Shown one piece after another: positions 33,843-47,949 of a stretch of 64,000 nucleotides of DNA. The stretch's first letter is position 1. Every line of letters begins with the position of its first letter. Below the pieces are notes generated by a model that was given only the letters and a program-made list of their open reading frames with translations, was not told the DNA's origin and made no database searches. This stretch comes from Erysipelatoclostridium sp. An173 (lineage in GTDB: Bacteria > Bacillota_I > Bacilli_A > Erysipelotrichales > Coprobacillaceae), in the NCBI RefSeq assembly GCF_002160495.1, contig NZ_NFKR01000011.1, positions 1-64,000 of the forward strand. The letters run 5' to 3'. The translations under genes were made by a program, and so were the position numbers.

Positions 33843-34143
33843 ATGCAAGCTGGTATATGTAATCGAAGATTATGATGACAGTGGAAATCCGGTCAATGAT
33901 GAGTTCAGAATATCTGTTAAATGTGATGATCTGGGACAGTGGAGCAGCGGTTATTATGAAGATCGTAACCGTTCTATGATGAAATCAATAAATTTCAGGA
34001 TTGGTAGAAACTATCTGAATTCATGTAGAGGTGAACTTAGATATGTTGACTACAAAGGAATAAGATATGAAATCAAGCAGGTTTTAAAAGATAATCAAAG
34101 AAAACTTAAATGTATTCTCGACTGTGAGGAGTTTATAGTATGA
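33832..34143 (+). CDS. Head-closure / head-tail adaptor protein
   Basis: 103 aa beta-rich protein (YDDSGNPVNDEFRISVKCDD, INFRIGRNYLNSCRGELRYV, YKGIRYEIKQVLKDNQRKLK). Position and pattern fit SPP1 gp16/HK97 gp7-type closure proteins. Starts 11 bases before the end of the connector gene. Confidence 0.7.
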   Translation: MKSECKLVYVIEDYDDSGNPVNDEFRISVKCDDLGQWSSGYYEDRNRSMMKSINFRIGRNYLNSCRGELRYVDYKGIRYEIKQVLKDNQRKLKCILDCEEFIV

Positions 34144-34478
34144 TTGGGTTTGTTAAACAGAAAGAGCTGCTTGATCTTTTAGAAGAAAATAGTGAAAATA
34201 CAAAATGTTATTTTGAAGAGGTTAAAAATAAAAATGAAGATTATATCTATGTAAGAAGAATAGAGGATGCATCTATTCCGGCAGATAACACTAATTTTTT
34301 TATTTATAATCGTATAGAAATAACTGTATACAGTAAAACGGTATTAAAAAGGACGAATCTATGCAGATACATAATTTCTGTTTTTGATACCGTTTTTAGT
34401 TTTGCAAGAGCAAATGATATATATACTGCTACATGTACTGTTAATTTAAAGGTGGATGAGTGGAATGCCGGTCCATGA
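34140..34478 (+). CDS. Tail terminator/completion-like protein (tentative)
   Basis: 112 aa (VKQKELLDLLEENSENTKCY, then FFIYNRIEITVYSKTVLKRT). By size and position between head closure and major tail it would be a tail-completion or neck component. No decisive motif is visible. Overlaps its neighbours by 4 and 14 bases. Confidence 0.55.
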   Translation: MIGFVKQKELLDLLEENSENTKCYFEEVKNKNEDYIYVRRIEDASIPADNTNFFIYNRIEITVYSKTVLKRTNLCRYIISVFDTVFSFARANDIYTATCTVNLKVDEWNAGP

Positions 34479-34785
34479 TTTTGATGTCGAACTGGATCTT
34501 GATGATTTTTTAAAAGCTCTTGCAGAAGATGCCCGTGAAACTGCTGAAAGAAACAGTCCGCAAAGAAAAGGCAATTATGCAAAAGGATGGAAAACAAAAA
34601 AAGTAAAAGGCGGTTATATAGTCTACAACGAAAACTATAGACTGCCTCATCTTTTAGAAAATGGTCATCTTAGTAAAAATTTAGGATGGGTCAAAGGAAA
34701 AAAACACATCATTATTGCAGAAGATGCTGTTAAAAACAGCATTTCAAAACGGGCAGACAAAATAAAAATAAATATCAAAAGTTAG
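34465..34785 (+). CDS. HK97 gp10-like minor tail/neck protein
   Basis: 106 aa. DFLKALAEDARETAERNSPQ, RKGNYAKGWKTKKVKGGYIV, YNENYRLPHLLENGHLSKN and HIIIAEDAVKN form the gp10-like signature: helix, then strands with ...LTHLLEFGH-type motif. ATG 34465 is 9 bases after GGTGG. A neck/tail joining protein. Confidence 0.85.
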   Translation: MPVHDFDVELDLDDFLKALAEDARETAERNSPQRKGNYAKGWKTKKVKGGYIVYNENYRLPHLLENGHLSKNLGWVKGKKHIIIAEDAVKNSISKRADKIKINIKS

Positions 34786-34794
34786 GAGGATAGT

Positions 34795-35406
34795 ATGGAA
34801 AAAAAGATTATATACGGTAATGATAATTTCGGCTATGCTTTGATCGATACCAGTGAAGAAACACCTGAATTTTCTGCACCAGTTTTAATGCCAGGGATGA
34901 AATCAAGTACTATTGAAGTTGAGGAAAACAGTACAAAAATTCATGCAGATAATACTACGTTTGCTATTATTACCGGTGAAAAAGTAAGAACATGTGAGGC
35001 TACTGTTACATATATTCCGGAAAGTTATTATACGAACTGTTTAGGATATAAAGCAAATACAAATGGAATGTTAACTGACACTGGTACTAAAAAACCGCAC
35101 TGTTTCTTTTTTACTACAAATGAGCTGAATGCCGTAACCGGTGAAGAAACACAAACATTGCATTATGTTTATGACGTTACAGCTAAAGAGCCGAATTTAG
35201 AAACAAGTACGGTCGAAGATGAAATTGAAGCTGCTGATCTTGTGATCAGCTATGAATCAAAACGAAGTGATTTTGTAAAAGATACTGACGGGAAACTGGT
35301 AGGCTATGCTAGAATTACCAGAACAGAAGAAAATAAAACATGGTTCGATACTTTTAAAACTAAGGTATTATTACCTACAGATGAAGTTGCTGGAGCAGGA
35401 GGATAA
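34795..35406 (+). CDS. Major tail tube protein
   Basis: 203 aa (MEKKIIYGNDNFGYALIDTS ... VEENSTKIHADNTTFAIITG ... DLVISYESKRSDFVKDTDGK). Length and beta-rich character match phi13/TP901-type major tail proteins, and the tail chaperone genes follow immediately. GGAGG site 6 bases before ATG. Confidence 0.85.
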   Translation: MEKKIIYGNDNFGYALIDTSEETPEFSAPVLMPGMKSSTIEVEENSTKIHADNTTFAIITGEKVRTCEATVTYIPESYYTNCLGYKANTNGMLTDTGTKKPHCFFFTTNELNAVTGEETQTLHYVYDVTAKEPNLETSTVEDEIEAADLVISYESKRSDFVKDTDGKLVGYARITRTEENKTWFDTFKTKVLLPTDEVAGAGG

Positions 35407-35407
35407 T

Positions 35408-35872
35408 ATGAAGATATTTAAATACAGTTTTATTCCTGAAAAGATAGTTATCGATAAGAAAAACGGTGAGCCAAAAGTTATAAGAGGAAAAGAGCGCAAG
35501 CTCTTTTTTGCTTATACTCACGAATCGAGCGGTATTTTTGAAGAATTATTTGAACAGCCGCTTTTAACGGTACTTGATGTAAAAGACAAAGAAAATAAAA
35601 CACAGAAATATCTGAAGATTATCACTGATAAAAAATTTATACTGTGTCTTGCCGCAAGTTCTTATCTGGAAATAAACGACGGCAAGTACTGCAACAGCAT
35701 ATTCAATGCAGATAAGTTTATCGAAACAGATGGTATTGAAGTTTTAGCTAATGATATGAACTTTATCACCGGCCTTTTAGACTGCGTTTTTGATTCTCTG
35801 CCATCATCATCAAACAAAAAAGCAAATAGAAAAAAGTCTAATACTGTTTCTTCAAAAAAAAAGCGGTATTAA
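35408..35872 (+). CDS. Tail assembly chaperone gpG (zero-frame product)
   Basis: 154 aa (KIFKYSFIPEKIVIDKKNGE, HESSGIFEELFEQPLLTVLD, LAASSYLEINDGKYCNSIFN, FITGLLDCVFDSLP). Coats the tape-measure protein during tail assembly. Its end has nine A residues (35854-35862), with the heptamer AAAAAAG at 35857-35863 for -1 slippage into the gpT frame. Starts 1 base after the tail tube gene, RBS GGAGGAT. Confidence 0.88.
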   Translation: MKIFKYSFIPEKIVIDKKNGEPKVIRGKERKLFFAYTHESSGIFEELFEQPLLTVLDVKDKENKTQKYLKIITDKKFILCLAASSYLEINDGKYCNSIFNADKFIETDGIEVLANDMNFITGLLDCVFDSLPSSSNKKANRKKSNTVSSKKKRY

Positions 35873-36090
35873 GTTACAGTTATATAACTGCTCTATTAAT
35901 AAAATTAAACATTGATCTTACATGGGCCGGACAGCAAACATGGAAAACTCTGTTTAATTTAATGGAATCTATCAGCAGTTTAAGTTTAAATTCTAAAAAA
36001 GTAAGAAAGAAAGCAACCCCTCAGCAGGTTGCTTCTTTTGTCAGAAAGGATGGTGACACATGTCAGGGACAACAAAAGTCAAAGGCTTAA
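35408..36090 (+). CDS. Tail assembly chaperone gpGT made by -1 ribosomal frameshift
   Basis: A -1 shift at A-AAA-AAG (35857-35863) joins gpG to a frame open until TAA 36088-36090, giving a 227-aa fusion. The added part reads LSYSYITALLIKLNIDLTWA then QQTWKTLFNLMESISSLSLN and ends with VASFVRKDGD, the usual gpT type helix that binds the tail tube. The frame has no start codon or ribosome site of its own and overlaps the tape-measure start by 31 bases, as in lambda and many siphoviruses. Confidence 0.85.
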
Positions 36091-38057
36091 CAATTCAAAT
36101 TTATGGCGATGATAAAGAGTTTCAGGATACTGTCACCGGTACAAAAAAGGCATTAAATGAACTGCAAAAAGAGTCAATGACCCTTAATTCGCATCTTAAA
36201 TTTGACCCTAAAAATGTCGATAAATTAAATCAGCGTTTAAAATCACTTCAGCAGCAGGTCAAATTGAATGAATCGCTGATTGAAAAATACAATGCTGAAC
36301 TTAGTAAAATGGATAAAGCAGATATTGGTTCTGATCAGTGGCTTACTTTACAGAAAAATATTGCAACAGCTGAAAAAAATATAGCTCAATGTAATAGATA
36401 TATAAAAGATACTGAAGATGCTTTAAAAAAAGTTGATAATCAGAATTTAAGCAAAGTAAGAAAAGCAATAAACGGTCTTGCAGACAATGCTGAAAAAATC
36501 GGTAATACGCTGACTGATAAACTGACTAAACCGATTGCAGCAATTGCAACTGCTACCGCTGCAACTACTCAGGCAACTAAAGAATACCGTGAAGATGTGG
36601 CAAAGCTTGAAACAAATGCTTTGACAGCAGGCGCTAATCTTGAAATTACCAATCAGGCATTAAAAGATTTGAATGCAATCACCGGTGAAAGCGACAGTAA
36701 CGTTGAAGGATTATCAAATCTATTGCAGGCTGGTTTTAAAGATAACAACCTTACAAGGGTCGTTGAAGAATTAAGCGGGGCGGTTATCAAGTTTCCGGAT
36801 ACTTTAAAAATAGAAAGTTTAGCAGACGGTTTGCAGGAAACATTAGCAACCGGTGAAGCAACTGGGCAGTTTGGAGAATTATTAGACCGTTTAGGAATAG
36901 GTGCAGATAATTTCACTGAAAAACTGAAAAAATGTAAGACCGAAGCTGAAAAACAGCAGCTTGTCTTAGATACGCTTGCCAGTGCTGGACTTGCAGATGT
37001 TAATAAGGCGTATAGAGAAAACAATAAAAGTCTTATTGAAAACAGTGATGCACAATACGATCTTAATGAAGCGATTTCTGATTTAGGAAAAACAATGGAA
37101 CCGGTCGTAGCGAAGGTCACTCAATTTGTAGCCGATCTTTTAAAATGGTTCAATGATCTTGACCCTAAGATAAAAGTAATAATTGCAGCAGTAGCAGGAA
37201 TTGCAGCTGCAATTGGTCCAGTGATAACTATTGTAACGAAACTGAAAGGAGCAGTAAGTGCACTAGAAGGAGTTTTTGGAAAACTGAATTCCAGGTTTGC
37301 GATCATAGCCGGGGTGATAGCTGGTGTGATTGCACTTTTTGTATATCTGTATAACACAAACGAAAATTTTAGAAATCTTATTAATACTATTGCAGCAGAG
37401 GTATTACCCGCATTGCAGACTGCATTCGAGACGATATCAACGTTTATCAGTGAAACTGTGATACCAATCTTACAAAAATTATGGGACTGGTTCAATACGT
37501 ACATAATGCCTGTTATCGGGGCCGTAGCTACATTTTTAGTAGAAAAATTATGGAATGCATTTAAAGAGGTAGCAGATATTGTAAGTATGGTCTTACAGCC
37601 TATTTTAGATGGATTGATAGATGTTTTTGAAGGACTATACAACTTTATGGTCGATGTTAAAGATGCATTCAATAATGCATATGATGCTTTTTCTAAAACA
37701 AAAGCATTCGAAGTGATTCGAGATATAATTATTGCTATCGCAGATGGTGTAAATGAAATCATCGAGGGATTTAAATGGATTATTGAACACATTGATGATT
37801 TAACAAGTGTTGATGATAAAATTGAAGAGATAGCTAAAAAATCATCTGAAGCTTCAAACATATTAGGCTCAGCTTCAGGTCTTTTTGATAGTGGTGGATT
37901 TGGCAATAGTGTAAATGGCGGAGATACTACTTTATATTTAAGTACAAATTTTAATGTGACTAATAACGGTACCCCAATTTCAGTTCAAACGTTGAGAAAA
38001 TGGGGAAATGTTATTACAGATATAGTAGATGAAAATCTAGGAAGGCGAGGGCGATAA
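36060..38057 (+). CDS. Tail tape measure protein
   Basis: 665 aa. Coiled-coil N-terminus (TKKALNELQKESMTLNSHLK, LNQRLKSLQQQVKLNESLIE), an alanine-rich region, a hydrophobic central part (IIAAVAGIAAAIGPVITIVT, FAIIAGVIAGVIALFVYLYN) that would serve in DNA delivery across the membrane, and a glycine-rich end. Length predicts a tail of about 100 nm (about 0.15 nm per residue). RBS AAAGGATGG. Confidence 0.93.
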   Translation: MSGTTKVKGLTIQIYGDDKEFQDTVTGTKKALNELQKESMTLNSHLKFDPKNVDKLNQRLKSLQQQVKLNESLIEKYNAELSKMDKADIGSDQWLTLQKNIATAEKNIAQCNRYIKDTEDALKKVDNQNLSKVRKAINGLADNAEKIGNTLTDKLTKPIAAIATATAATTQATKEYREDVAKLETNALTAGANLEITNQALKDLNAITGESDSNVEGLSNLLQAGFKDNNLTRVVEELSGAVIKFPDTLKIESLADGLQETLATGEATGQFGELLDRLGIGADNFTEKLKKCKTEAEKQQLVLDTLASAGLADVNKAYRENNKSLIENSDAQYDLNEAISDLGKTMEPVVAKVTQFVADLLKWFNDLDPKIKVIIAAVAGIAAAIGPVITIVTKLKGAVSALEGVFGKLNSRFAIIAGVIAGVIALFVYLYNTNENFRNLINTIAAEVLPALQTAFETISTFISETVIPILQKLWDWFNTYIMPVIGAVATFLVEKLWNAFKEVADIVSMVLQPILDGLIDVFEGLYNFMVDVKDAFNNAYDAFSKTKAFEVIRDIIIAIADGVNEIIEGFKWIIEHIDDLTSVDDKIEEIAKKSSEASNILGSASGLFDSGGFGNSVNGGDTTLYLSTNFNVTNNGTPISVQTLRKWGNVITDIVDENLGRRGR

Positions 38058-38059
38058 AG

Positions 38060-38944
38060 ATGGCTGTTAGAAAATTCTGGCTTATCAACGGAAATGGACA
38101 GAAATTTGATCTTACTGATTTTAAAGACGGTTTTCTTAATAATCCTGCCGGATTAGGATTTACAGCTACTGTAACTTTAACAAGATTAGGCAATGCTCAA
38201 AAACTTAACAGTATCACCGATGATTTGAATAATATCAGCGGTGAACTGCTTTTGAAAAACAATGATGATAATGCACTTGCATATGATGCTTATACAGAGT
38301 TTATTAAATTTGCTAGTGTACTGCCGTTGTTTCTGCATTATCAGACCCCGGCAATGTCTAATTATTCTTTTTATAGAGAAATAGTATTAAGCAGTATCGA
38401 AAAAGGTGAAGTTGATTATGAAACGAATATGTTGCGATGCAATGTAGTATTCACACCGCTGACAATGTGGAGAAACAATAGTTTAAAAACTGTTGTTGCA
38501 ACAGCAAAAAAGAATACTGGAAAAAAATACAATCTAAACCGGCCATATGCGTATGCAAGTGCCGGCTATGAAAATATAACGTTAAATAACAACAGTCCAT
38601 CAAGTGTTCCTTTGATAATTGAAATCGAAGGAGAATGCAGTAATCCGGCTTTTTCATTATATGATCAAAACGGTGATGTATATGGTATCTGTCGTATAAA
38701 CGGAGAATTCGATTATGTATATATCAATTCTGATGATTTAGAAGAAGAAATAAAATTAAGCAAAGATGGTGCATGGCTTAATAATGCTGTTAACTATCAG
38801 GATTTTTCTATTGCGATGCCTAATAAGGCTTATTTAACTTTCTGCTATCTAAGGCCTGGAAAATCAGGAATGAAATTTACTTTTGCAGACGAATTTGATG
38901 GAAAAATAAGTGTAAGCTGGAGAGATGAATATGCATCAGTCTAG
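38060..38944 (+). CDS. Distal tail protein (Dit)
   Basis: 294 aa. Begins MAVRKFWLINGNGQKFDLTD, the conserved Dit N-terminus, with GLGFTATVTLTRLGNAQ and FNNISGELLL-like segments (DLNNISGELLLKNNDDNALA), and a galectin-like C-terminal half. Forms the hexameric hub at the tail tip linking tube to Tal/fibres. Ends overlapping the next gene. Confidence 0.85.
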   Translation: MAVRKFWLINGNGQKFDLTDFKDGFLNNPAGLGFTATVTLTRLGNAQKLNSITDDLNNISGELLLKNNDDNALAYDAYTEFIKFASVLPLFLHYQTPAMSNYSFYREIVLSSIEKGEVDYETNMLRCNVVFTPLTMWRNNSLKTVVATAKKNTGKKYNLNRPYAYASAGYENITLNNNSPSSVPLIIEIEGECSNPAFSLYDQNGDVYGICRINGEFDYVYINSDDLEEEIKLSKDGAWLNNAVNYQDFSIAMPNKAYLTFCYLRPGKSGMKFTFADEFDGKISVSWRDEYASV

Positions 38945-39992
38945 AAAAGGTTATTTTCGTTTGTATTTTAAAGGACGTTTTGCATTAAATGAAAAAGCAT
39001 ACGGTTATGCCAGAGTTCTTTCATTTAATGTAAGAGAGGATTTGCTTACTTCTCAAAACAGCAGTTTTAAACTCGAAACAGTTCCAAACGCCGCTGTAGA
39101 AGGTGATATTGTAATTTTAATCGATGCATACGGTAAAAAACTGTACACTGGTGTTATTAAACAGATAGAAGATATTCAGATTGATGCAAATGGAATTTTA
39201 ACTCTATTTGATGATAATGATTTTTATCAAATCGGTTCTTACAGCAATTCAAACTGCAATGAAAGAACAGAATATATATTAAATCATTATAAAAACAATA
39301 ACAGTGATGATCCTAAAATTTCAGAGCTGATTGAGCAGTTTGAAATTTCACATGATGATGAATGTCCACGGGGATGGCAATATGATTATACAGAAGTACA
39401 TACGCTTAATGTTTATGAACAGTTGCTTAAAATGTTTGATGATTATAGTGTAAAAATAACGGTCGACATTCCGCTTAATGAAGGACAGAGTACAATATTT
39501 ACCGGTCCAGTAAATACTGGAGTGCATAAATTTATAGATAATACTGTGGTGTTGACAAGTATTACTCCAACCATAGAAGTGCAGTCAACAAATAAACTTG
39601 TTATCTATAATCAGGACGGTACTCAAAAAAGAGGTATTTACTATCTGACAGAAAACGGAGTTACTCAGGATGCAAATGATCTTACCCGTTTAAATATAGT
39701 TAATACAAATATCGTTAATTCTGATGAAGAACTGTCTACAGTCGTAGCGAACAATCTTGAAAAAGAAATGTATAATCATAAAATTGTCGTTAATATGATG
39801 CTTGATAATAAATTATATGATTATTACACTTTTGAATTAGGCGGTAATTTTATTATCAGCGTCAAGGCAAAATATTATGAAACTATTTGGACTGCTTATG
39901 AACTTGATTTAGAAGAAAAAGGCGATTTAGATATAGTCACAATGACTTTTGGGAAAGTAAGGACTAAAGCAAGCGAGAGGTATTTTCAATGA
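38931..39992 (+). CDS. Tail-tip hub protein (Tal N-terminal-domain type, prophage tail endopeptidase family)
   Basis: 353 aa, start ATG 38931 7 bases after TGGAGAG. Pattern of the gp27-like hub: YARVLSFNVREDLLTSQNSS, TVPNAAVEGDIVILIDAYGK, YTGVIKQIED. It stops where longer Tal proteins continue into a lysin domain; here the lysin is a separate gene starting within its stop codon. So the usual hub-plus-hydrolase is split in two polypeptides. Confidence 0.75.
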   Translation: MHQSRKGYFRLYFKGRFALNEKAYGYARVLSFNVREDLLTSQNSSFKLETVPNAAVEGDIVILIDAYGKKLYTGVIKQIEDIQIDANGILTLFDDNDFYQIGSYSNSNCNERTEYILNHYKNNNSDDPKISELIEQFEISHDDECPRGWQYDYTEVHTLNVYEQLLKMFDDYSVKITVDIPLNEGQSTIFTGPVNTGVHKFIDNTVVLTSITPTIEVQSTNKLVIYNQDGTQKRGIYYLTENGVTQDANDLTRLNIVNTNIVNSDEELSTVVANNLEKEMYNHKIVVNMMLDNKLYDYYTFELGGNFIISVKAKYYETIWTAYELDLEEKGDLDIVTMTFGKVRTKASERYFQ

Positions 39993-40444
39993 TAGATGAA
40001 AATAAAAAATTGCAGTTTAGCGGAGGGTCAATGACCGCTCTAGGTATTACTATTCATAACACAAATAATCAGTATTCAGCCGAAGAAAATTATCAGCTCA
40101 TGCTGAATTCATCAATGAGCTATTCAGCTCATTTTTTTGTTGATAAAGATATTGCAATTCAGGCAATGCCCCTTGATGTCCAGGCATTTCACACAGGGAA
40201 AGCGTATGACAACGGTAATAAATATACTATTGCTATTGAAATATGTTCAAAGGGCAATGATGAAGAATTTAACAAAGCAGTTGAAAATACAATTCTTCTG
40301 ATACAGATGATAAGAAATGAATTAGGCAATCTGCCGATTTATTTCCACAATGATTTCGATAGAACAAAATACTGTCCGCATCGACTTCTTGATCAGTATC
40401 AGAATAAAGAAAATTTTATCAGGAGGTGGAACCTTGTCAATTAA
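39989..40444 (+). CDS. Tail-associated N-acetylmuramoyl-L-alanine amidase (amidase_2/PGRP type)
   Basis: 151 aa. ALGITIHNTNNQYSAEENYQ has the first zinc His, SAHFFVDKDIAIQAMPLDVQ and TIAIEICSKGN follow, and YFHNDFDRTKYCPHRLL carries the second His and the Cys of T7-lysozyme-like zinc sites. It cuts the amide between muramic acid and the stem peptide. Position in the tail-tip module, away from holin/endolysin, implies local wall opening during infection. ATG overlaps the hub gene stop (ATGA). Confidence 0.85.
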   Translation: MIDENKKLQFSGGSMTALGITIHNTNNQYSAEENYQLMLNSSMSYSAHFFVDKDIAIQAMPLDVQAFHTGKAYDNGNKYTIAIEICSKGNDEEFNKAVENTILLIQMIRNELGNLPIYFHNDFDRTKYCPHRLLDQYQNKENFIRRWNLVN

Positions 40445-40883
40445 AGTGATGGCAGATAATGATGCTGATATTTCAGCAAAGCAGGATGCTGCCTTATATT
40501 ATTTTTTGAGCGGATATAAAAAACATTCTATTTTTAAAGATTACGAAAGCGAAATGGAAGTTTCTATATCAAATCTGCAAGCCACTTTAAAAGCCGGTGG
40601 AGCAATGGTATATGGGCATCATATATATTGTGATGGAACAGATACATTGACATTACCATCAAACAGCGAATGTTATATCGTTGTTCGAATTGATATGACC
40701 CAGCCGGCAACCCATGAAGGTGAATTTACAACTGTAACACTGTTAAAAGAAGAAAATATTTTAGCTGATGGAAACATCTATGATATTCCTTTGTATAAGA
40801 TTACTACTGGAGTTAACAGTGTTACAGAAACAGAAGATATAAGAAATATTGATGAAAACATGATTGTTTTTTTCGATGAATAA
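40434..40883 (+). CDS. Baseplate/tail fibre structural protein
   Basis: 149 aa from TTG 40434 behind AGGAGGTGG; the in-frame ATG 40350 lies inside the amidase gene. KAGGAMVYGHHIYCDGTDTL, TLPSNSECYIVVRIDMTQPA and ILADGNIYDIPLYKITTG are typical of the N-terminal domain of baseplate/receptor-binding proteins in Firmicutes siphoviruses. It may be the adaptor for the fibres that follow. Confidence 0.7.
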   Translation: MSIKVMADNDADISAKQDAALYYFLSGYKKHSIFKDYESEMEVSISNLQATLKAGGAMVYGHHIYCDGTDTLTLPSNSECYIVVRIDMTQPATHEGEFTTVTLLKEENILADGNIYDIPLYKITTGVNSVTETEDIRNIDENMIVFFDE

Positions 40884-40897
40884 AGAAAGGAGAATAT

Positions 40898-41788
40898 ATG
40901 GCAATAAAAAGTGTAAAAGCGACAATAAACGGACAGGAGTATACATTAACTCTTAATTCTGGAACTGGTAAGTATGAAGCTACAATTACAGCTCCGGCGA
41001 CTTCCAGCTTTAACAACAATGATGATCATTATTATCCAGTTGAAGTTAAAGTAACAGATATGGCTGATAATGTTACAACAAAAAATGATACTGATCCTAA
41101 TTTGGGAGATAATTTGAAATTAGTTGTAAAAGAAAAAGTTGCACCTATTATTGAGATTATTAGTCCTACGCAAGGGCAGTTAACACCACAAAATAAACCA
41201 CAAGTAACATTTAAAGTTACTGACAATGATTCCGGTGTAAGCTTAACATCTGTTAAGTTAAAAATTGATAACGTAGAAGTGTCAGGGTTACAAAATTCCA
41301 GCATTGAAGACGGATATCAGTTTACATATACACCTTCAGAACCGTTGGACGATGGTGAACATACTGTTACTGTTAATGCATCAGATAATGACGGAAACGC
41401 TGCTGAGCCTGAAACAGTTACATTTAATGTCTTGGCTACTGCACCAAATCTATCTGTTGATGCTCCAACGAACAATATTTGGACAAACAACACAACAGTT
41501 GCTTACAGTGGTACTACAGACGGGGCTAGTTTGACTGTTAAAATCAATAACGGGCAAGCACAAAGCGTTGACATTTCAGGAGGCTCATTTAGCGGAAACG
41601 TTACATTGACAAAGGAAGGTGCAAACACATTAACGTTTGTTGCTACTTCTGCAGCAGGTATCGAAACTACAGTTACTCGAACGGTTAACTTAGATACAAA
41701 ACCGCCTGTTATTACAGAAGTTAGTATCACTCCAAATCCAGTTGATGCCGGTAGCACATATGTTCTAGCGGTAAAAATTACGGATTAA
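40898..41788 (+). CDS. Tail protein with repeated bacterial Ig-like domains
   Basis: 296 aa. At least three Ig-like repeats can be seen: IIEIISPTQGQLTPQNKPQV, APNLSVDAPTNNIWTNNTTV and PPVITEVSITPNPVDAGSTY, each followed by VTVNASDNDG/TLTFVATSAAG-type strands. Such domains decorate tails and bind surface carbohydrate weakly. RBS AAAGGAG. Codon use is not unlike neighbours. Confidence 0.8.
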   Translation: MAIKSVKATINGQEYTLTLNSGTGKYEATITAPATSSFNNNDDHYYPVEVKVTDMADNVTTKNDTDPNLGDNLKLVVKEKVAPIIEIISPTQGQLTPQNKPQVTFKVTDNDSGVSLTSVKLKIDNVEVSGLQNSSIEDGYQFTYTPSEPLDDGEHTVTVNASDNDGNAAEPETVTFNVLATAPNLSVDAPTNNIWTNNTTVAYSGTTDGASLTVKINNGQAQSVDISGGSFSGNVTLTKEGANTLTFVATSAAGIETTVTRTVNLDTKPPVITEVSITPNPVDAGSTYVLAVKITD

Positions 41789-41790
41789 TT

Positions 41791-42108
41791 ATGGTTAATC
41801 GAGTAATAGCTAAAAATCCTCAATTCGAGGTTATTTTAGAATTAGATGAAAACGATGGACTATGGAAAGGCTCTATGCCTTCCGTAGCTATCGGTGAATA
41901 TTATGTTGATATATATGCATGGGATTTAGCAGGAAATCAAGCATATATGTCTAAAGCTTTATTTGTTGTAGATACGAACGGTATACATATAATGCCTTTA
42001 ATATCTAATTTTTATTGTCGTATCAAAGATAATTTTCATGTTCAAATGTATGAAAATACCAGATTTAATTTAAGCGTAAAGGATGTGTGCAAATGCAATG
42101 CAGTGTAG
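41791..42108 (+). CDS. Tail/fibre-associated Ig-like hypothetical protein
   Basis: 105 aa. EVILELDENDGLWKGSMPSV, GEYYVDIYAWDLAGNQAYM and a VVDTNGIH end of an Ig-like domain are seen. It starts 3 bases after the previous stop without a strong ribosome site, so reinitiation is likely. Function unknown beyond likely virion role. Confidence 0.55.
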   Translation: MVNRVIAKNPQFEVILELDENDGLWKGSMPSVAIGEYYVDIYAWDLAGNQAYMSKALFVVDTNGIHIMPLISNFYCRIKDNFHVQMYENTRFNLSVKDVCKCNAV

Positions 42109-42377
42109 ATAAATTAAAATTTTATAAGGGTGAAATTAGAAAAGTAACTCTAGAAGTTAAAAGCTGTCTAGATGAAGAATTCTCTATCCTAAGAGCAAAT
42201 GTAGAGATAAAACAATATGCTACAGTTGCATTAGAGATAACTCCGTCTATTAACGAACATGATATCATTTTTACAATTGATACGACAAAATTAGAAAAGG
42301 CAAAATATAAAGTTTACTGCGAGTATGTAATTGCTGATGAAACACTTATTGATGTCTTAGATTTGGAGGTAAGATAA
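42093..42377 (+). CDS. Hypothetical beta-rich tail-region protein
   Basis: 94 aa from ATG 42093 behind AAAGGATG; GTG 42087 possible. VDKLKFYKGEIRKVTLEVKS, SLRANVEI-like strands and ITPSINEHDIIFTIDTTKLE suggest an Ig-like sandwich. Overlaps its upstream neighbour by 16 bases. Confidence 0.55.
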   Translation: MQCSVDKLKFYKGEIRKVTLEVKSCLDEEFSILRANVEIKQYATVALEITPSINEHDIIFTIDTTKLEKAKYKVYCEYVIADETLIDVLDLEVR

Positions 42378-42557
42378 ATGGCACAAAGCGAATATCTAAT
42401 TCTAAATGTAGAATTAACTAAGAATATAGTTAATGTTAATGAAAATTTTATTATAAGAGTTTCTATCAACACATGGGATTTCTTAGCAAAAAATTACACG
42501 TGGCAATCACTTTACAACAATTACGAGAAATGGAGTGATCTAATAAATGGCAGTTGA
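42378..42557 (+). CDS. Hypothetical 59-aa tail-region protein
   Basis: Starts at the base after the preceding stop (GGAGGTAAGATAA upstream) and ends 11 bases inside the next gene. NVELTKNIVNVNENFIIRVS then ISTWDF-like INTWDFLAKNYTWQSLYNNY. The same short TWQSLYNNY-type end is seen in small phage proteins near fibres. Function unknown. Confidence 0.55.
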   Translation: MAQSEYLILNVELTKNIVNVNENFIIRVSINTWDFLAKNYTWQSLYNNYEKWSDLINGS

Positions 42558-42729
42558 GATTCCTACTAAATTAACTGTTCCAAAAGATATTGACATGTCA
42601 AATCCTGCGGATATTAGAGAAATCTGGAATGAAATACAGGTTATTGTACCGAAAATAAACGAAGTAATAGATGTATTATCAGAACATGATACATCTTTAA
42701 ATGATGCAGTATATTATCAGGAGGATTAA
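42547..42729 (+). CDS. Hypothetical 60-aa helical protein
   Basis: VPKDIDMSNPADIREIWNEI and VPKINEVIDVLSEHDTSLND form an amphipathic helix pair. GGAGTGATC site. It is the last gene before the first repeat-bearing leader and its end carries that leader's AGGAGG site. Possibly a chaperone or connector for the fibre tips; this is a guess from position. Confidence 0.5.
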   Translation: MAVEIPTKLTVPKDIDMSNPADIREIWNEIQVIVPKINEVIDVLSEHDTSLNDAVYYQED

Positions 42730-42731
42730 AT

Positions 42732-42866
42732 ATGATTGAGAAATTAAAACGCTCGGGTGCGTTGTACACACACACACACACACGGGTATACAAATTTATA
42801 CTATTAAAGAGGTACTTTTTAAGTGCCTTTTTAATTGTAAAAGAAAGTGTGGTGACAAGCATTTAG
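42732..42866 (+). CDS. Leader ORF 1 with (AC)9 repeat, upstream of fibre-tip genes
   Basis: 44 codons from ATG 42732 behind CAGGAGGATTAA. The protein starts MIEKLKRSGALYTHTHT and resembles leader ORF 2 (MIKSVKILSGG). Codons 12-17 are the (AC)9 tract. With nine units the frame stops at TAG 42864-42866, in the loop of a hairpin. With eight units the frame would end at TAG 42890-42892, overlapping the ATG of the fibre gene at 42885. With ten it would stop at TAA 42805-42807, just before a terminator-like hairpin. Likely a regulatory leader and not a functional protein. Confidence 0.65.
   Translation: MIEKLKRSGALYTHTHTRVYKFILLKRYFLSAFLIVKESVVTSI
42766..42783. repeat. (AC)9 dinucleotide microsatellite
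   Basis: Nine perfect AC units inside leader ORF 1. Dinucleotide runs of this length are unexpected in this genome and change by slippage, shifting the frame by two bases per unit. Typical of contingency loci. Confidence 0.9.
42811..42832 (+). terminator. Terminator-like hairpin inside leader 1
   Basis: GGTACTT (42811-42817) pairs with AAGTGCC (42821-42827, one G-T), loop TTT, followed by T5. Translation through it in two of three repeat states would prevent its folding. Confidence 0.6.
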
Positions 42867-42875
42867 ACTTGTCAC
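42852..42875 (+). promoter_or_regulatory. Hairpin abutting the ribosome site of fibre gene 1
   Basis: GTGACAAG and CTTGTCAC pair perfectly around an 8-base loop that contains the TAG of leader 1 (42864-42866). The stem ends directly before GGTGG, the ribosome site of the gene at 42885, so leader translation may open or close this site. Confidence 0.6.
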
Positions 42876-42884
42876 GGTGGTTAT

Positions 42885-43205
42885 ATGACTAGGCTTTACA
42901 ATAAAGAAGGAAATTTACTTCCAGAAAAATTTGTTCAATTAGGTACTAATCAAGGTACCTATACCATTGACAACCTGAATAAATACAAAGAAATTGTTGC
43001 TTTTGGCTGGGGATATGGATGGATTACAATTGGGAGATTAAATTTAACACTCATTCAAAATCCGCATTTTCCAACTGAATCTACAGTATATGAAGCAGGG
43101 GCTGCTGATGGTTATGAAATCTATTTTCAAAAAATGGGAGATAATCAAATTCGAGTTGGACACGGTGGAAATATTTCTAACATTGTTGTTGGTCTAGTCT
43201 ATTAA
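42885..43205 (+). CDS. Fibre-tip protein 1 (paralogue array)
   Basis: 106 aa. Begins MTRLYNKEGNLLP, matching the DKNGN-type start of the following paralogues, then a beta-rich, Gly/Asn-rich domain (IVAFGWGYGWITIGRLNLTL ... NQIRVGHGGNISNIVVGLVY) as expected for a receptor-binding head. RBS GGTGG only 4 bases before ATG and flanked by a hairpin, so translation is probably coupled to leader 1. Role as receptor-binding or decoration protein is inferred from position and composition. Confidence 0.7.
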   Translation: MTRLYNKEGNLLPEKFVQLGTNQGTYTIDNLNKYKEIVAFGWGYGWITIGRLNLTLIQNPHFPTESTVYEAGAADGYEIYFQKMGDNQIRVGHGGNISNIVVGLVY

Positions 43206-43225
43206 TTACAAGTTTAAATGCCTAC

Positions 43226-43576
43226 ATGGGTAGATTTACAGATAAAAATGGAAACAAAATATTAGCTGGGACTGTTTTATACGATGGCGATACTACCAGT
43301 GATTTTATTTTGAATGATGAATATGACAATTATGATTATATAGAAGTTATCTATCGTCCGCATCCTAGCTTAGGTCAGTGTAGTGATAAAATGATTACTT
43401 CAAAATCTGCTAGAATGCACTTAAGCAGTGCACAAACAATCAATGGCGTAACTACAATTTATCGCTGTCAAATGGATTTTGAAGGTAAAAATGTGCGATT
43501 GACAGGAACTAGTCAGGCTATAGGCGGAGCAAGTGCAGGAAATGAAGTAACTATATATAGAGTAATTGGTTATTAA
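43226..43576 (+). CDS. Fibre-tip protein 2 (paralogue array)
   Basis: 116 aa, start MGRFTDKNGNKILAGTVLYD, then a different beta-rich domain (YIEVIYRPHPSLGQCSDKMI, TTIYRCQMDFEGKNVRLTG). No ribosome site is visible; it lies 20 bases after fibre gene 1 in another frame, so reinitiation after gene 1 is likely. The shared N-terminus with divergent remainder is the pattern of exchangeable tips. Confidence 0.7.
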   Translation: MGRFTDKNGNKILAGTVLYDGDTTSDFILNDEYDNYDYIEVIYRPHPSLGQCSDKMITSKSARMHLSSAQTINGVTTIYRCQMDFEGKNVRLTGTSQAIGGASAGNEVTIYRVIGY

Positions 43577-43591
43577 AAGGCACTAAAAAAG

Positions 43592-43618
43592 ACCTCTCTA
43601 AAATAAAGAAAGAGAGGT
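43592..43618 (+). promoter_or_regulatory. Hairpin covering the ribosome site of leader 2
   Basis: ACCTCTCT (43592-43599) pairs perfectly with AGAGAGGT (43611-43618). The 3' arm is the AGAGAGG ribosome site of leader ORF 2, so the site is hidden when the hairpin forms. Confidence 0.6.
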
Positions 43619-43626
43619 AAAAAATA

Positions 43627-43674
43627 ATGATAAAATCAGTAAAAATTCTTTCGGGGGGGGGTACTGTTTACTAA
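43627..43674 (+). CDS. Leader ORF 2 with G9 tract, upstream of the second fibre-tip group
   Basis: 15 codons in the present state: MIKSVKILSGGG then TVY and stop TAA 43672-43674. AGAGAGG is 9 bases before ATG. With G8 the frame would run to TAG 43724-43726, in the loop of the next hairpin. With G10 it would run through the hairpin to TAA 43758-43760, overlapping the ATG of the fibre gene at 43753. The design repeats that of leader 1 with a different repeat type. Confidence 0.65.
   Translation: MIKSVKILSGGGTVY
43653..43661. repeat. G9 homopolymer tract
   Basis: Nine consecutive G in a genome of about 30 percent G+C, inside the start of leader ORF 2. Poly-G tracts of this length slip at high frequency and are the commonest contingency repeat in bacteria. 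Confidence 0.9.
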
Positions 43675-43710
43675 CACAGTATCTTATACCCCTGCTACTA
43701 ACCAAAGAGG

Positions 43711-43740
43711 AGGTGCAGCTAAATAGCTACACACCTTTTT
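43711..43740 (+). terminator. Terminator-like hairpin between leader 2 and fibre gene 3
   Basis: AGGTG-C-AGCT (43711-43720) pairs with AGCT-ACA-CACCT (43725-43736) with a small internal loop, followed by T4. The loop contains TAG 43724-43726, the G8-state stop. GGAGGTGGG and ATG 43753 follow. Confidence 0.6.
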
Positions 43741-43752
43741 GGAGGTGGGTAT

Positions 43753-44046
43753 ATGACTAAATTCAAAAATTCTACAAATCAAACGATACTAGAAACAGGT
43801 ACTACAACTTTATTTTATCAAGATGCTAGTACATTATCTCAAGCAGTTACTTTAGAAAAAGAAGTAGAAAATATTATATTTTCACTAAGAGGAACTGCAA
43901 CAAATCCACGTGATCAAATAGATAGATATTATGCCCAGCTTAACTGGAACAACGATCCTAAGACTGTTTGTTTTATCGCTAAAGGCAGTGGATTTGTAAA
44001 TGGCCACGCTATGCCGTTGGATTTTATAGTTAAATATAAGAATTAG
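43753..44046 (+). CDS. Fibre-tip protein 3 (paralogue array)
   Basis: 97 aa, start MTKFKNSTNQTILETGTTTL, then beta-rich domain (EVENIIFSLRGTATNPRDQI, CFIAKGSGFVNGHAMPLDFI). GGAGG 7 bases before ATG. It ends in TAG 44044-44046, after which the same frame stays open through 8 sense codons into fibre gene 4. Confidence 0.7.
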   Translation: MTKFKNSTNQTILETGTTTLFYQDASTLSQAVTLEKEVENIIFSLRGTATNPRDQIDRYYAQLNWNNDPKTVCFIAKGSGFVNGHAMPLDFIVKYKN

Positions 44047-44070
44047 TCATATAAGCTATTTGCTAAAAAT

Positions 44071-44388
44071 ATGAGCAAATTTAGAGATAAAAATGGAAAC
44101 GTTTTGTTAGATACGGTTAGACTTCTTCTTTATAAGAAGAAAGTTAATAATGTTCAATACGATACTTTTGAAACTGGGTTATACGCTTATGGAAGCTATG
44201 CTACAGGAGCACCGACGGATTGGGCAGGTACAGTATTGAATATTTACAAACCAACCGAGTTTAGAAATGATAGTGATAATGATACTTCTATTTTTAAAAT
44301 CGCATTCGATCGAACCGGGATTTATGCAATGCGATTTAATGAAGAAGGAGTATCACAAACCAGCTGGGTTCAAATCGTTTCCTTTTAG
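44071..44388 (+). CDS. Fibre-tip protein 4 (paralogue array)
   Basis: 105 aa, start MSKFRDKNGNVLLDTVRLLL, then a Tyr/Gly-rich domain (YDTFETGLYAYGSYATGAPT). No ribosome site; in frame with fibre gene 3 across a single TAG, so it may be made by reinitiation or by amber read-through as a two-domain fusion. Confidence 0.7.
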   Translation: MSKFRDKNGNVLLDTVRLLLYKKKVNNVQYDTFETGLYAYGSYATGAPTDWAGTVLNIYKPTEFRNDSDNDTSIFKIAFDRTGIYAMRFNEEGVSQTSWVQIVSF

Positions 44389-44407
44389 TGTTAGTAAATG
44401 GGCGATT

Positions 44408-44764
44408 ATGCCAAATACAAATGGAAAATTAGTAGATAAAAATGGAAATGAAATTTTTCCTATTGAACGTGGCACTGTAGAAAGTGCGGTTGGATCAATT
44501 ACATATGTAAAACGTGGGAAAATTGTAATATATACAATAGATTTTGTAACTTCATCTATAAGCGCAGCAACAAGTGAATTAGCTACTGCCCCATATTTTA
44601 ATAAAAATATGGAATTTGAAGGTGGAGCAATATTAAGAGTAGCTAACACACCAGTTGGATACGCTTGTTGTTCAGTTACAGAGGAAGGTAGAATAAAAGC
44701 AATACACTCTGCATATGATAATCAGGTTCAATTTATCGGCAGTGTAACAGTCATATTAGAGTAA
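44408..44764 (+). CDS. Fibre-tip protein 5 (paralogue array)
   Basis: 118 aa, start MPNTNGKLVDKNGNEIFPIE, then a domain with SAVGSITYVKRGKIVIYTID, a Thr/Ser/Ala-rich patch and VQFIGSVTVILE. The frame is already open from 44267 within gene 4, so a +1 shift near TCC-TTT-TAG (44381-44388) could also fuse it to gene 4. No clear ribosome site. A terminator follows. Confidence 0.7.
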   Translation: MPNTNGKLVDKNGNEIFPIERGTVESAVGSITYVKRGKIVIYTIDFVTSSISAATSELATAPYFNKNMEFEGGAILRVANTPVGYACCSVTEEGRIKAIHSAYDNQVQFIGSVTVILE

Positions 44765-44789
44765 AGGCATCTAAAAAATGCCTTTTTTT
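44763..44789 (+). terminator. Terminator after the fibre-tip array
   Basis: AAAGGCAT (44763-44770) pairs with ATGCCTTT (44778-44785), T run to 44789. It separates the fibre group from the lysis genes. Confidence 0.75.
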
Positions 44790-44811
44790 ATATTATATGA
44801 AGGTGAGGAAA

Positions 44812-45291
44812 ATGAAAAAAATGGTCTTAAATAATTTGAATTATATGGATGCTTATAATGCGATAGTTGGAGGCATTATTGCTTTTTTTAGTTTTATTTT
44901 TGGTGAGCACTGGTTGTTATTTGCGGTATTTTTACTTCTAAATGTAATCGACTGGATTACCGGGTGGATGAAATCACGGATTGCTAAACAAGAAAATAGT
45001 GTAAAAGGATGGCAGGGTGTCCTAAAAAAAATTGGATACTGGCTAATGATCATGGTTTCTTTTGCGTTATCTGCGATTTTTATTGAATTAGGAGATACGT
45101 TAGGAATTGATCTAGGTGTGACAACGCTATTAGGATGGTTTGTTTTAGCAAGTTTGCTGGTCAATGAAGCAAGAAGTATTGTTGAAAATTTTGTTGAAGC
45201 TGGGTTTAATGTACCAGCTATTTTGATAAATGGTTTAGAAGTAGCAGACAAAATTATTAATAAAGAAAACGAAAATGAGGAGGAAGAATAA
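44812..45291 (+). CDS. Phage holin (holin_4 / TcdE-like family)
   Basis: 159 aa. Three to four membrane segments (GGIIAFFSFIFGEHWLLFAV, DWITGWMKSR motif after the second, WLMIMVSFALSAIFIEL, TLLGWFVLASLLVNEARSIV) and an acidic tail. The FLLLNVIDWITGWMKS plus ENxxxGWxG segments are typical of the toxin-secretion/phage-lysis holin family. ATG 44812 follows AAGGTGAGG; ATG 44797 is an alternative. Makes the membrane hole that lets out or activates the endolysin. Confidence 0.9.
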   Translation: MKKMVLNNLNYMDAYNAIVGGIIAFFSFIFGEHWLLFAVFLLLNVIDWITGWMKSRIAKQENSVKGWQGVLKKIGYWLMIMVSFALSAIFIELGDTLGIDLGVTTLLGWFVLASLLVNEARSIVENFVEAGFNVPAILINGLEVADKIINKENENEEEE

Positions 45292-45292
45292 T

Positions 45293-46276
45293 ATGAAATT
45301 CGGGATTAATTGTGGACATACAAAATCAGGACCAGGTAGTGGGGCAGTTGGACGTATTGTTGAAAGTGACGAAACAAGAAATGTTGGATATAAATTAATG
45401 GATAAATTTAGAGCAAATGGGCATACAGTTGTAGATTGTACAATTAATAGTGCTAGTTCTCAAAATGCTTATCTATCTCAAGCTGTAAATTTAGCAAATC
45501 GACAGGATTTAGATTATTTTATTAGTATTCATTTCAATGCTGGAGGCGGACGAGGTGTAGAAACTTATACATACGAAGGACGTCAATTTGCAGATGCGCT
45601 AGAAACTTGTGCGAATATTGCAGCTTTAGGTTTCAGAAATAGAGGTGTTAAAGCAGGTACAGGTCTTTATGTTATTAGAAAAACAAAAGCAAAATCAATG
45701 CTGATCGAAGTTTGTTTTGTTGATACAGATGATGCAAATTATTATTTAACAGTAGGTGCTGATGCTGTTGCACAAGCAATTTATAATGCAGTAGTTGATG
45801 TTAATAACGGTACTGCGAGCGAGGGAAATACAGCTGTAGATAATGTAAATAATGGAGTAGCAAATGCTTCTAAAGATATTATCAAAGCAGGACAGCAACA
45901 TTCAATTAATTTCACTGGTCGAAGTATTGCAGTGGATGGTATTTACGGTACTAACACAAAGAAAAATGGTATCCGTTGTGTTCAAAATGCTTGCAATTTA
46001 GATTATGGAAGTGGATTAGCAGTAGATGGTGCTTATGGAACTAAAACAAAAACAGCTTTAGGTTCTCATTATGTAAAAAAAGGTGAAACTCAATATATGG
46101 TCACTGCGGTTGAAATTTTATTAATGTTAAGAGGTTATAACCCAAACGGTGTCGAATGTCCTGGTATCTTTGCTAGTGGATTAGAGACTGCTGTTAGACA
46201 ATATCAAAAAGATGCAGGGTTGAAAGTTGATGGTATTGCCGGTAAAAACACAATTAAATCATTAATGAATATTTAA
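45293..46276 (+). CDS. Endolysin: amidase_3 with C-terminal peptidoglycan-binding domains
   Basis: 327 aa from ATG 45293 (AGGAGGAAG 8 bases upstream). N-terminal zinc amidase: INCGHTKSGPGSGAVGRIVE (first His), ISIHFNAGGG (second His), SMLIEVCFVDTDDANYY (catalytic Glu). C-terminal half has two peptidoglycan-binding type repeats: VDGIYGTNTKKNGIRCVQNA and AVRQYQKDAGLKVDGIAGKN. Hydrolyses MurNAc-L-Ala bonds at lysis. No signal peptide, so it depends on the holin. Confidence 0.93.
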   Translation: MKFGINCGHTKSGPGSGAVGRIVESDETRNVGYKLMDKFRANGHTVVDCTINSASSQNAYLSQAVNLANRQDLDYFISIHFNAGGGRGVETYTYEGRQFADALETCANIAALGFRNRGVKAGTGLYVIRKTKAKSMLIEVCFVDTDDANYYLTVGADAVAQAIYNAVVDVNNGTASEGNTAVDNVNNGVANASKDIIKAGQQHSINFTGRSIAVDGIYGTNTKKNGIRCVQNACNLDYGSGLAVDGAYGTKTKTALGSHYVKKGETQYMVTAVEILLMLRGYNPNGVECPGIFASGLETAVRQYQKDAGLKVDGIAGKNTIKSLMNI

Positions 46277-46283
46277 TATTATT

Positions 46284-46565
46284 ATGAAAAAATCAAATAT
46301 TAAAAGTTTTCTCAAAATATTTATTTGTATTTCATTGTTAGCTAATTTATTTTTTGCTATTCGTTTGGTTCAAGTAGAAAAAAATTACAATAGCAATATT
46401 TCTGCAAAACAAGAGGAAATAAACGAATTAAAAAAAGATAAAAAAAGATTAGAAAGTAACAATGATACATTATTAGATGATAATGATATTTTTAAGGAAC
46501 AATACAAAAAATACTTTGAACTCTGCGAAGAACTAGAAAATCAGATGGGCGTTTACTATGAATGA
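46284..46565 (+). CDS. Membrane-anchored coiled-coil protein in the lysis cassette
   Basis: 93 aa. One N-terminal membrane segment (FLKIFICISLLANLFFAIRL) and a long coiled coil (QEEINELKKDKKRLESNNDT). By plan it resembles Rz/spanin i-subunits, but Gram-positive hosts have no outer membrane, so a structural or lysis-timing role is more likely. Weak ribosome site. Confidence 0.55.
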   Translation: MKKSNIKSFLKIFICISLLANLFFAIRLVQVEKNYNSNISAKQEEINELKKDKKRLESNNDTLLDDNDIFKEQYKKYFELCEELENQMGVYYE

Positions 46566-46731
46566 TACAGTTTATTTAAAACGAGGTGCACAAGATATCT
46601 ACGGTAATTATTTAAATATCAGATTAGAATATTTTATAAGACACCGTGGCGATATATACAGTGTAATTTCAAACGGTTATTGTGATATTGTCATAAATAA
46701 TAAATATATAAAAAAATTTCCTAGAGCTTAA
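46558..46731 (+). CDS. Hypothetical 57-aa protein (XkdX-like position)
   Basis: DTVYLKRGAQDIYGNYLNIR and IRHRGDIYSVISNGYCDIVI. Starts 8 bases before the previous stop and ends within a terminator stem. Small beta-rich protein of unknown function at the end of the late operon. Confidence 0.5.
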   Translation: MNDTVYLKRGAQDIYGNYLNIRLEYFIRHRGDIYSVISNGYCDIVINNKYIKKFPRA

Positions 46732-46747
46732 TGCTCTAGGATTTTTT
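46720..46747. terminator. Late-operon terminator (bidirectional)
   Basis: CCTAGAGC (46720-46727) pairs perfectly with GCTCTAGG (46733-46740), then T7. It overlaps the ends of the late operon and the convergent gene at 46728. Confidence 0.85.
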
Positions 46748-47024
46748 TATTATAATAATCGATATCTGTTATTTTAATAATGGTATCTAAAACTTCATCT
46801 TCATCTTCTTTTTTTTCTAGAATTTCCCAAATATAATTGATCCATTGATTATCAGCGATTGGATAACTGTAACTTCCTTCTTCAGGTTCGATATATTGAG
46901 CTCCGTCCCAAACATCATTGAAGGTACAAACATCTCCAACTTCTAAATCTGGAAGATTAGTTTTATATATATCATAATCTTCATTTTTCATTATTTCATA
47001 TGCTTTTTCAACTGTCTTATTCAT
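46728..47024 (-). CDS. Hypothetical acidic protein, lysogenic-conversion candidate
   Basis: 98 aa, highly acidic (Asp/Glu rich), EKAYEIMKNEDYDIYKTNLP, DLEVGDVCTFNDVWDGAQYI, WINYIWEILEKKEDEDEVLD. The acidic, DNA-mimic-like charge and its reverse position at the prophage edge suggest a conversion or anti-defence gene, but no family is recognised. AAAGAGAGGT site. Confidence 0.6.
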   Translation of the reverse strand: MNKTVEKAYEIMKNEDYDIYKTNLPDLEVGDVCTFNDVWDGAQYIEPEEGSYSYPIADNQWINYIWEILEKKEDEDEVLDTIIKITDIDYYNKKILEH

Positions 47025-47127
47025 TATTTTTTACCTCTCTTTATTATATTTTATACTATGCGGTTAAATTTATAAATAGTGTTTTAAATGTTGCGCTTCA
47101 TTTTGCTTAATTTTTTTCTTTCTTAAA

Positions 47128-47385
47128 TTAAAATTCAACAAAATTATTTCTTTTGCTATTCCAATATTTGCTCATTCCATTAGTAGTATAGTAAGCACGT
47201 CTCTTACCATAACCGCTCCACAATTTGAATTCAAAATTATATGTATTATCTATATCATAATAATTTCTTACTGAGGCTTCACGTTTAATGCAAGCCCACG
47301 CCATTTTCAAACCCGTTGAAATATTTACTTTAAATTTTCTAACACATTGCCATGCAATTTTAAATAATTTACTTCTGTTTAACAT
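47128..47385 (-). CDS. Hypothetical basic protein with AW-C motif repeats
   Basis: 85 aa. LFKIAWQCVRKFKVNISTGL and KMAWACIKREASVRNYYDID contain two AW-C helices of a kind common in plasmid and phage accessory proteins. Basic, Tyr-rich C-terminus. Strong own promoter. Function unknown. Confidence 0.55.
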   Translation of the reverse strand: MLNRSKLFKIAWQCVRKFKVNISTGLKMAWACIKREASVRNYYDIDNTYNFEFKLWSGYGKRRAYYTTNGMSKYWNSKRNNFVEF

Positions 47386-47446
47386 TTTTCTTATCTCCTT
47401 TACTTTTTTTGTTTTTCTGTTCTACCTATCCCTACCTTACAACTAT

Positions 47447-47475
47447 ATTGTACATCTTTTTGATTATATTGTCAA
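47447..47475 (-). promoter_or_regulatory. Strong leftward promoter of the 47128-47385 gene
   Basis: TTGACA (47475-47470), 17-base spacer and TACAAT (47452-47447). A near-consensus promoter at the prophage edge implies expression in the lysogen. Confidence 0.75.
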
Positions 47476-47583
47476 CCTTTTTTATAACTTTTTATGTTAT
47501 TTTATAAATATTTTTAATTTATTATATAATCAAATAGATTTATTTTAAAAAATGTGATAATATAAATATGAAGAGGTGGTATC

Positions 47584-47820
47584 ATGATAAAAAACAAAAT
47601 AAAAATGTTGTTTAATTATAAGAATGTTAAACAATCAGATTTTATTGAATTGCTGGATATGTCTAGCAGACAAGCTTTAAATAATAAATTTGCAAAAGAT
47701 CGCTTTACTGTTCAAGATGTTATCAAAATTTGTAATGAATTGGATTGTACTTTGCAAATAGTAGACAATACCAGTAAAAATACAATTGTTTCATTTGATA
47801 TAGAAGATACAACAATATAA
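47584..47820 (+). CDS. XRE-like helix-turn-helix regulator at the prophage right end
   Basis: 78 aa. IKMLFNYKNVKQSDFIELLD then MSSRQALNNKFAKDRFTVQD, FKICNELD-type end: a Cro/CI fold of the small DUF739-like kind. AGAGGTGG site. It is the last prophage gene, immediately before the right attachment arm, a frequent place for lysogeny-expressed regulators. Confidence 0.75.
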   Translation: MIKNKIKMLFNYKNVKQSDFIELLDMSSRQALNNKFAKDRFTVQDVIKICNELDCTLQIVDNTSKNTIVSFDIEDTTI

Positions 47821-47845
47821 AGTTGTCAAAATAGTTGTCAAATTA
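47821..47845. repeat. Tandem GTTGTCAAA repeats, possible integrase arm sites
   Basis: AGTTGTCAAAATAGTTGTCA with a 12-bp period, similar to 13653-13675 at the left end and in the same orientation. Confidence 0.5.
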
Positions 47846-47856
47846 TTTTTTTAACT

Positions 47857-47897
47857 GCCAAACCCCTTGATTTTACTAGGGTTTAGCCGTTTTAACA
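47857..47897 (+). terminator. Terminator-like repeat at the right prophage arm
   Basis: AAACCC (47860-47865) pairs with GGGTTT (47879-47884), then TTTT. 47865-47893 is an exact 29-bp copy of 13565-13593 next to attL. Confidence 0.6.
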
Positions 47898-47904
47898 TCG
47901 TTAT

Positions 47905-47949
47905 CTCTTAATCAGTGGGTCTAGGGTTCGAATCCCTAAGGGGAGACCA
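47905..47949 (+). other. attR core (prophage right end)
   Basis: 45 bp identical to the 3' part of tRNA-Lys (13500-13544) including CCA. The 5' half of a tRNA is absent, so it is an attachment duplication and not a tRNA gene. Confidence 0.95.

Follow-up and report, generated by a model that had tools for sequence, protein, structure and literature searches.

Simple-sequence-repeat contingency loci underlie translational phase variation in bacteria such as Campylobacter, Neisseria and Haemophilus, and the way bacteria use such repeat-based variation in their conflict with phages is well studied. The locus described here resembles these systems in several respects: it carries short homopolymer or dinucleotide tracts near an ORF start that lie beyond chance expectation, differ in length among close relatives and change the frame end points, and it is tied to surface-exposed products. 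In contrast to contingency loci, each tract is housed in a short leader ORF of its own, the peptide of which seems unimportant, inside a phage tail-tip array, where control of the next genes by translational coupling and ribosome-site release is proposed and where the end points of all three frames are conserved. Translational attenuators of the erm and cat type offer a second likeness, in that leader translation opens a hairpin hiding the next ribosome-binding site, and a paired downstream ribosome-binding site of this kind is predicted at leader 2 (8/8 folds). The signals differ, however, where drug-induced ribosome stalling acts on erm/cat leaders and inherited DNA tract length would act here. 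Mu G-segment inversion and diversity-generating retroelements also vary the receptor-binding tail proteins of one phage lineage, reversibly or rapidly, but we propose neither an invertase nor a reverse transcriptase; slippage in the two tracts would instead set only how strongly unaltered tail-tip genes are expressed.

Repeat-tract contingency loci, leader-peptide attenuators, translational coupling and phage host-range switches are each known kinds of system, and a search of the open literature (subscription journals being mostly outside its scope) found no phage system that joins such parts. Homopolymer tracts are also present in the genomes of N4-like Vibrio phages, where polymerase slippage was suggested as one possible reason (PMC3670811), but those tracts involve no leader, no tail-tip link and no frame-tied length variation. 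In the present case, a phage appears to use repeat-based phase variation on its own receptor-binding array. We assign a probability of roughly three in four to the reading that each leader is a phase-variable translational switch, driven by DNA slippage and acting via leader translation and coupling. Placement of the tract in a leader would allow the downstream gene to be swapped with the switch undisturbed. If correct, this reading would provide a prophage population with a simple and testable route to hedge its host range, and would provide a recognisable DNA signature to seek in other phages.

Layout of the prophage array and its two leaders

The array resides in a prophage within the window, that is, the whole 64,000-nt stretch of DNA analysed. 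The prophage boundary repeats are identical over 45 bp and correspond to the 3' end of tRNA-Lys, which marks tRNA-Lys as the integration site. Tail genes adjoin the array on one side (a Dit-like protein, a PHROG tail protein and Ig-like proteins) and holin and amidase-like genes on the other, which places lysis genes downstream of both leaders. The array itself comprises five small genes in two blocks, where a short repeat-tract leader ORF heads each block. Features are as follows.

13500..47949, no strand assigned: prophage holding the array, bounded by 45-bp direct repeats
13691-14830, (-): integrase, inside the prophage
42547..42729, (+): conserved 60-aa gene, directly 5' of leader 1
42732..42866, (+): leader 1 ORF in its (AC)9 state, with a strong ribosome-binding site (AGGAGG)
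42766..42783, (+): (AC)9 tract, inside leader 1
42809..42829, (+): hairpin T, terminator-like (GGTACTT..AAGTGCC plus a T run), kept in relatives
42852..42875, (+): hairpin H (GTGACAAG-CATTTAGA-CTTGTCAC), of the same sequence in six phages
42885..43205, (+): slot-1 putative tail-tip gene, 106 aa; its ribosome-binding site is weak, and weaker or lacking in the relatives computed
43226..43576, (+): slot-2 putative tail-tip gene, 116 aa, conserved; lacks a ribosome-binding site in the window
43627..43674, (+): leader 2 ORF in its G9 state, recomputed
43653..43661, (+): G9 tract, inside leader 2
43662..43681, (+): hairpin A, its loop holding the early stop TAA 43672-43674
43702..43742, (+): hairpin B region, predicted with an upstream strand to lock the slot-3 ribosome-binding site
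43741..43749, (+): slot-3 ribosome-binding site GGAGGTGGG, mostly paired in the predicted fold
43753..44046, (+): slot-3 putative tail-tip gene, 97 aa, its start overlapping a leader-2 stop
44071..44388, (+): slot-4 putative tail-tip gene, 105 aa, without an identified ribosome-binding site
44411..44764, (+): slot-5 putative tail-tip gene, start placed by the common N-terminal DKNGN motif
44763..44785, (+): terminator-like hairpin at the array end, ahead of the holin gene

Each leader was recomputed for all three frames, and the tract lengths and frame fates reported in the first-pass annotation were reproduced at every coordinate. For leader 1 (ATG 42732), the stop ends at 42866 with (AC)9, at 42892 with n=8 and at 42807 with n=10. 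The (AC)9-frame stop, TAG 42864-42866, falls within the loop of hairpin H as originally described, and the window assembly is accordingly in a loop-stop state at this leader. The stop of the n=8/11 frame, TAG 42890-42892, overlaps the slot-1 ATG (42885). For leader 2 (ATG 43627), the stop ends at 43674 with G9, 43726 with G8 and 43760 with G10 or G7, where TAA 43758-43760 of the G7/G10 frame overlaps the slot-3 ATG (43753). The window assembly is in the early-stop state at leader 2. The G8-frame stop had been placed in a hairpin loop; its position stands (TAG 43724-43726), but it lies at the edge of the apical loop of hairpin B rather than squarely inside. A possible further hairpin (CCTCTCT..AGAGAGG, window 43593-43617) covers leader 2's own ribosome-binding site, and a similar one is found in L027 and L028 and is absent from L029 and L026.

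Both tracts stand apart from the rest of the window, where G9 is the sole G run of at least 7 and (AC)9 the sole dinucleotide run of at least 6 units. A first-order Markov model yields, per 64 kb, an expectation of 0.016 G9/C9 runs and 3e-7 (AC)9/(GT)9 runs. Chance does not account for either tract.

Tract lengths and frame end points among related phages

Related phages were collected from IMG/VR by pattern and protein searches, where relatives of the 60-aa gene served to find both leader-bearing and leaderless phages. Leader-bearing relatives comprise eight records (L026, L027/L024, L028, L029, L030, L034/L050, L039/L051 and L040), and L044, L045 and L046 are leaderless. One IMG/VR record, matched as L020, L021, L023, L025, L031 and L041, is the same as the window over the 8.3 kb compared and is therefore not independent evidence. 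The nine leader-bearing phages, window included, share ancestry, and all were compared as consensus assemblies. Relatives were absent from the phages collection, the genome contigs and 316 genomes of the order; the sole other match among those genomes (G283) is an unrelated region without tracts, and the short leader-2 pattern matches L032, L033 and L035-L038 are unrelated sequences.

Tract length varies considerably across these phages. Leader 1 carries 7 AC units in L026, 9 in the window, 10 in L029, L039 and L040, 11 in L050, 13 in L027, 15 in L028 and 16 in L030. The leader-2 tract is G9 in the window, L026, L034, L039 and L040 and G8 in L029, and it is interrupted in L027 and L028 (GGGGAGGGGG). 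The first-pass annotation had proposed a search of related prophages for other repeat lengths and held that invariant lengths would count against a switch; IMG/VR relatives span 7-16 AC units and both G8 and G9. Two pairs isolate the change. L029 and L040 differ by a single G and are otherwise identical across ~480 bp around the G tract, and L027 and L030 are three AC units apart, where the first 389 aligned columns contain 2 mismatches. No further AC or G tracts of such size occur in the examined stretches of the leader-bearing phages, and none occur in those of the leaderless relatives. The two-leader layout is conserved and the tracts are restricted to these two sites. Independent isolate and metagenome assemblies have tracts of different lengths at the same site, which makes an assembly artefact unlikely.

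Inspection of the stops relative to the next ATG reveals that the frames end at set positions. Leader-1 stops in six phages fall at +8/+11, -18 and -77/-80, where the coupled-frame stop overlaps the next ATG as ATGNNTAR (three bases later in L030), the middle-frame stop (-18) lies in the hairpin H loop and the early stop (-77/-80) precedes hairpin T. A chimeric leader in L050 has its three frames stop at +8, -29 and -87. Leader-2 stops fall at +8, about -26 to -32, and -78 to -90, the exception being L028, where the tract is interrupted and the middle stop class is lost. The coupled frame is open in 14/14 leaders, with a shuffling chance of 0.01-0.13 per leader, although these are not independent observations because the leader copies are related. 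L039 and L040 keep leader 1, yet no frame reaches the next ATG. These conserved stop positions support the earlier claim that the leader frame fixes whether ribosomes reach the overlapping tail-tip start.

All three states are represented among the leader-1 assemblies, with L026, L027 and L030 in the coupled frame, the window, L029 and L050 at the loop stop and L028 at the early stop. Pure-G leader-2 tracts are in the early-stop state in the window, L026, L039 and L040 and in the loop-stop state in L029 and L034, with none of the six in the coupled frame. Both interrupted tracts (L027 and L028) are in the coupled frame.

The leader peptides themselves do not appear to be conserved. The leader ORFs lack codon-position bias, and nonsynonymous changes generally exceed synonymous ones; a peptide-level function was rejected on these grounds. 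The suggestion that the two peptides are paralogous is not supported, where N-termini differ among relatives and no codon-level constraint is seen. Since the peptides are unconstrained at the codon level, the destination of the ribosome seems to be what matters, and the simplest mechanism is therefore translational. Leaderless relatives have the conserved slot-2 type gene directly after a strong ribosome-binding site, AGGAGGGAAT, with nothing between them. For this reason the leader cassette seems to have taken over the slot-2 position, and a leader that is the remnant of a longer fibre gene is unlikely.

The proposed switch and its alternatives

We infer that DNA slippage is the cause of the frame changes and that these alter expression, with an intermediate level among the outcomes. 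An AC or G tract would gain or lose units by slippage during prophage replication, which would change the leader frame. In the coupled frame, a ribosome would cross the downstream hairpins and stop on the codon overlapping the next ATG, where it would restart at the overlapping start for slots 1-2, or would free the sequestered ribosome-binding site for slot 3 onward. If the leader stops early, its hairpins would remain folded and the tail-tip genes would be poorly translated. The third frame, which stops in or beside a hairpin loop, would probably give an intermediate level. With two independent switches, one lysogen population could release virions with different tail-tip mixtures.

Predicted ribosome-binding strengths are consistent with this division of labor. 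Leaders have good ribosome-binding sites in the phages computed, and slot-1 genes mostly lack one, with binding energies of -5.7 in the window (a weak site) and 0 to -2.2 in L024, L028 and L029. Slot-2 energies are 0 in the window, L024, L028 and L029, which contrasts the -10.8 of leaderless L044 and L045. Slot-3 genes have a strong site of their own that is mostly paired in 8/8 predicted leader-2 folds. When leader 2 is folded separately, three relatives score z values between -5.7 and -6.2 and the window scores -3.8, and alignment of the leader-2 stem from six sequences pairs 97.5% of cells, compared with at most 59% when slid. Changes in this stem are one-sided, and covariation across the six sequences is consequently not above shuffles.

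Stops are retained at three fixed points (ahead of the hairpins, in or next to a loop, and on the next start), and three expression levels per leader are plausible. A stronger reading, in which each frame is built for a distinct expression level in a ternary contingency switch, is tentative and to our minds somewhat less probable than its negation. If true, a prophage population with two switches would have as many as nine states of tail-tip expression.

The foremost alternative is that transcription attenuation is the main control, where an intrinsic terminator would form and truncate the transcript whenever the leader goes untranslated, and leader translation would prevent this. Hairpin T and its T run follow the leader-1 tract in all copies, just past the early stop, and a terminator scan of three phages flags it as terminator-like in L028 but not in the window or L029. 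At leader 2, the scan flags no terminator on the + strand over the hairpin (43702-43742) and the T run lies within the stem, so that a terminator was rejected there; the hairpin is better explained, on the predicted folds, as a lock on the ribosome-binding site. Complete termination would also silence the downstream lysis genes unless another promoter serves them. We consider attenuation as the main control unlikely. The first-pass annotation had invoked a terminator-like hairpin after each leader, which stands for leader 1 and fails for leader 2, and had proposed attenuation plus coupling, of which coupling agrees with the conserved stop-start overlap whereas attenuation appears weak and possible at leader 1 only.

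Less likely still is a mechanism with no DNA change, in which RNA polymerase or the ribosome slips at the G tract and produces the frames in constant proportions, as in programmed frameshifting. Slippage is possible on G8-G9 runs, and most pure-G leaders are in the early-stop state. However, AC repeats occupy the same place as the G tract and to our knowledge are not a transcriptional slippage signal, and tract lengths vary freely among relatives, where programmed slippage sites are usually fixed in length. It is very improbable that the leaders are non-functional repeat expansions with tail-tip genes translated independently: the peptides lack codon-level constraint and slot 3 has its own strong ribosome-binding site, but the stop-start overlap, hairpins and tract positions are conserved, the coupled frame is open, tracts are absent elsewhere, and leaderless relatives have a strong direct ribosome-binding site.

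Controlled genes and neighbouring loci

The slot-1 protein of L030 matches Pfam Gp10_C, a baseplate domain (4.4e-28), and a low-confidence structure model of the slot-2 family (mean pLDDT 68) has the phage phi812 baseplate as its sole significant PDB match (E 4.3e-5). Among the window's own small tail-tip proteins, none could be assigned to a family with confidence. On these sequence and model matches, the controlled genes are probably tail-tip, baseplate or receptor-binding proteins, from which we infer both the tail-tip function and the consequence for host range. Three of the small genes have a DKNGN-like N-terminal motif in common (direct repeat D1). The shared motif is encoded by a 35-nt direct repeat at window 43229, 44074 and 44423, copies of which are 74-77% identical to the reference copy.

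Slot-1 genes differ strongly among phages and the hairpin in front of them is unchanged, which suggests cassette exchange of slot-1 genes. L039 (1-150) and L040 (8940-9110) lack the slot-1 gene as well as half of the conserved hairpin, and their leader 1 joins the next gene at GGTGACAAGCATTTAG. This junction indicates that the conserved hairpin may be an exchange point for tail-tip cassettes. L050 (8879-9042, - strand) is a natural chimera, where the leader-1 AC tract and first hairpin are joined to the leader-2 ribosome-site lock.

A host locus beside the prophage may also contain a switch. A tyrosine recombinase gene (window 49485-50598, - strand) encodes Phage_int_SAM_3 and Phage_integrase domains with one internal stop codon, and is flanked by 20-nt inverted repeats of 95% identity (49485-49504 and 50579-50598). 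The gene sits immediately upstream of a pair of NusG-like genes and of a polysaccharide-type cluster, and the recombinase and inverted repeats could possibly form an invertible switch of a host surface-polysaccharide locus. The two adjacent NusG-domain genes (window 50588-51889; Pfam NusG, 3.2e-07 and 1.8e-09) precede the polysaccharide-type cluster in an arrangement that resembles the specialised antiterminators of capsule operons.
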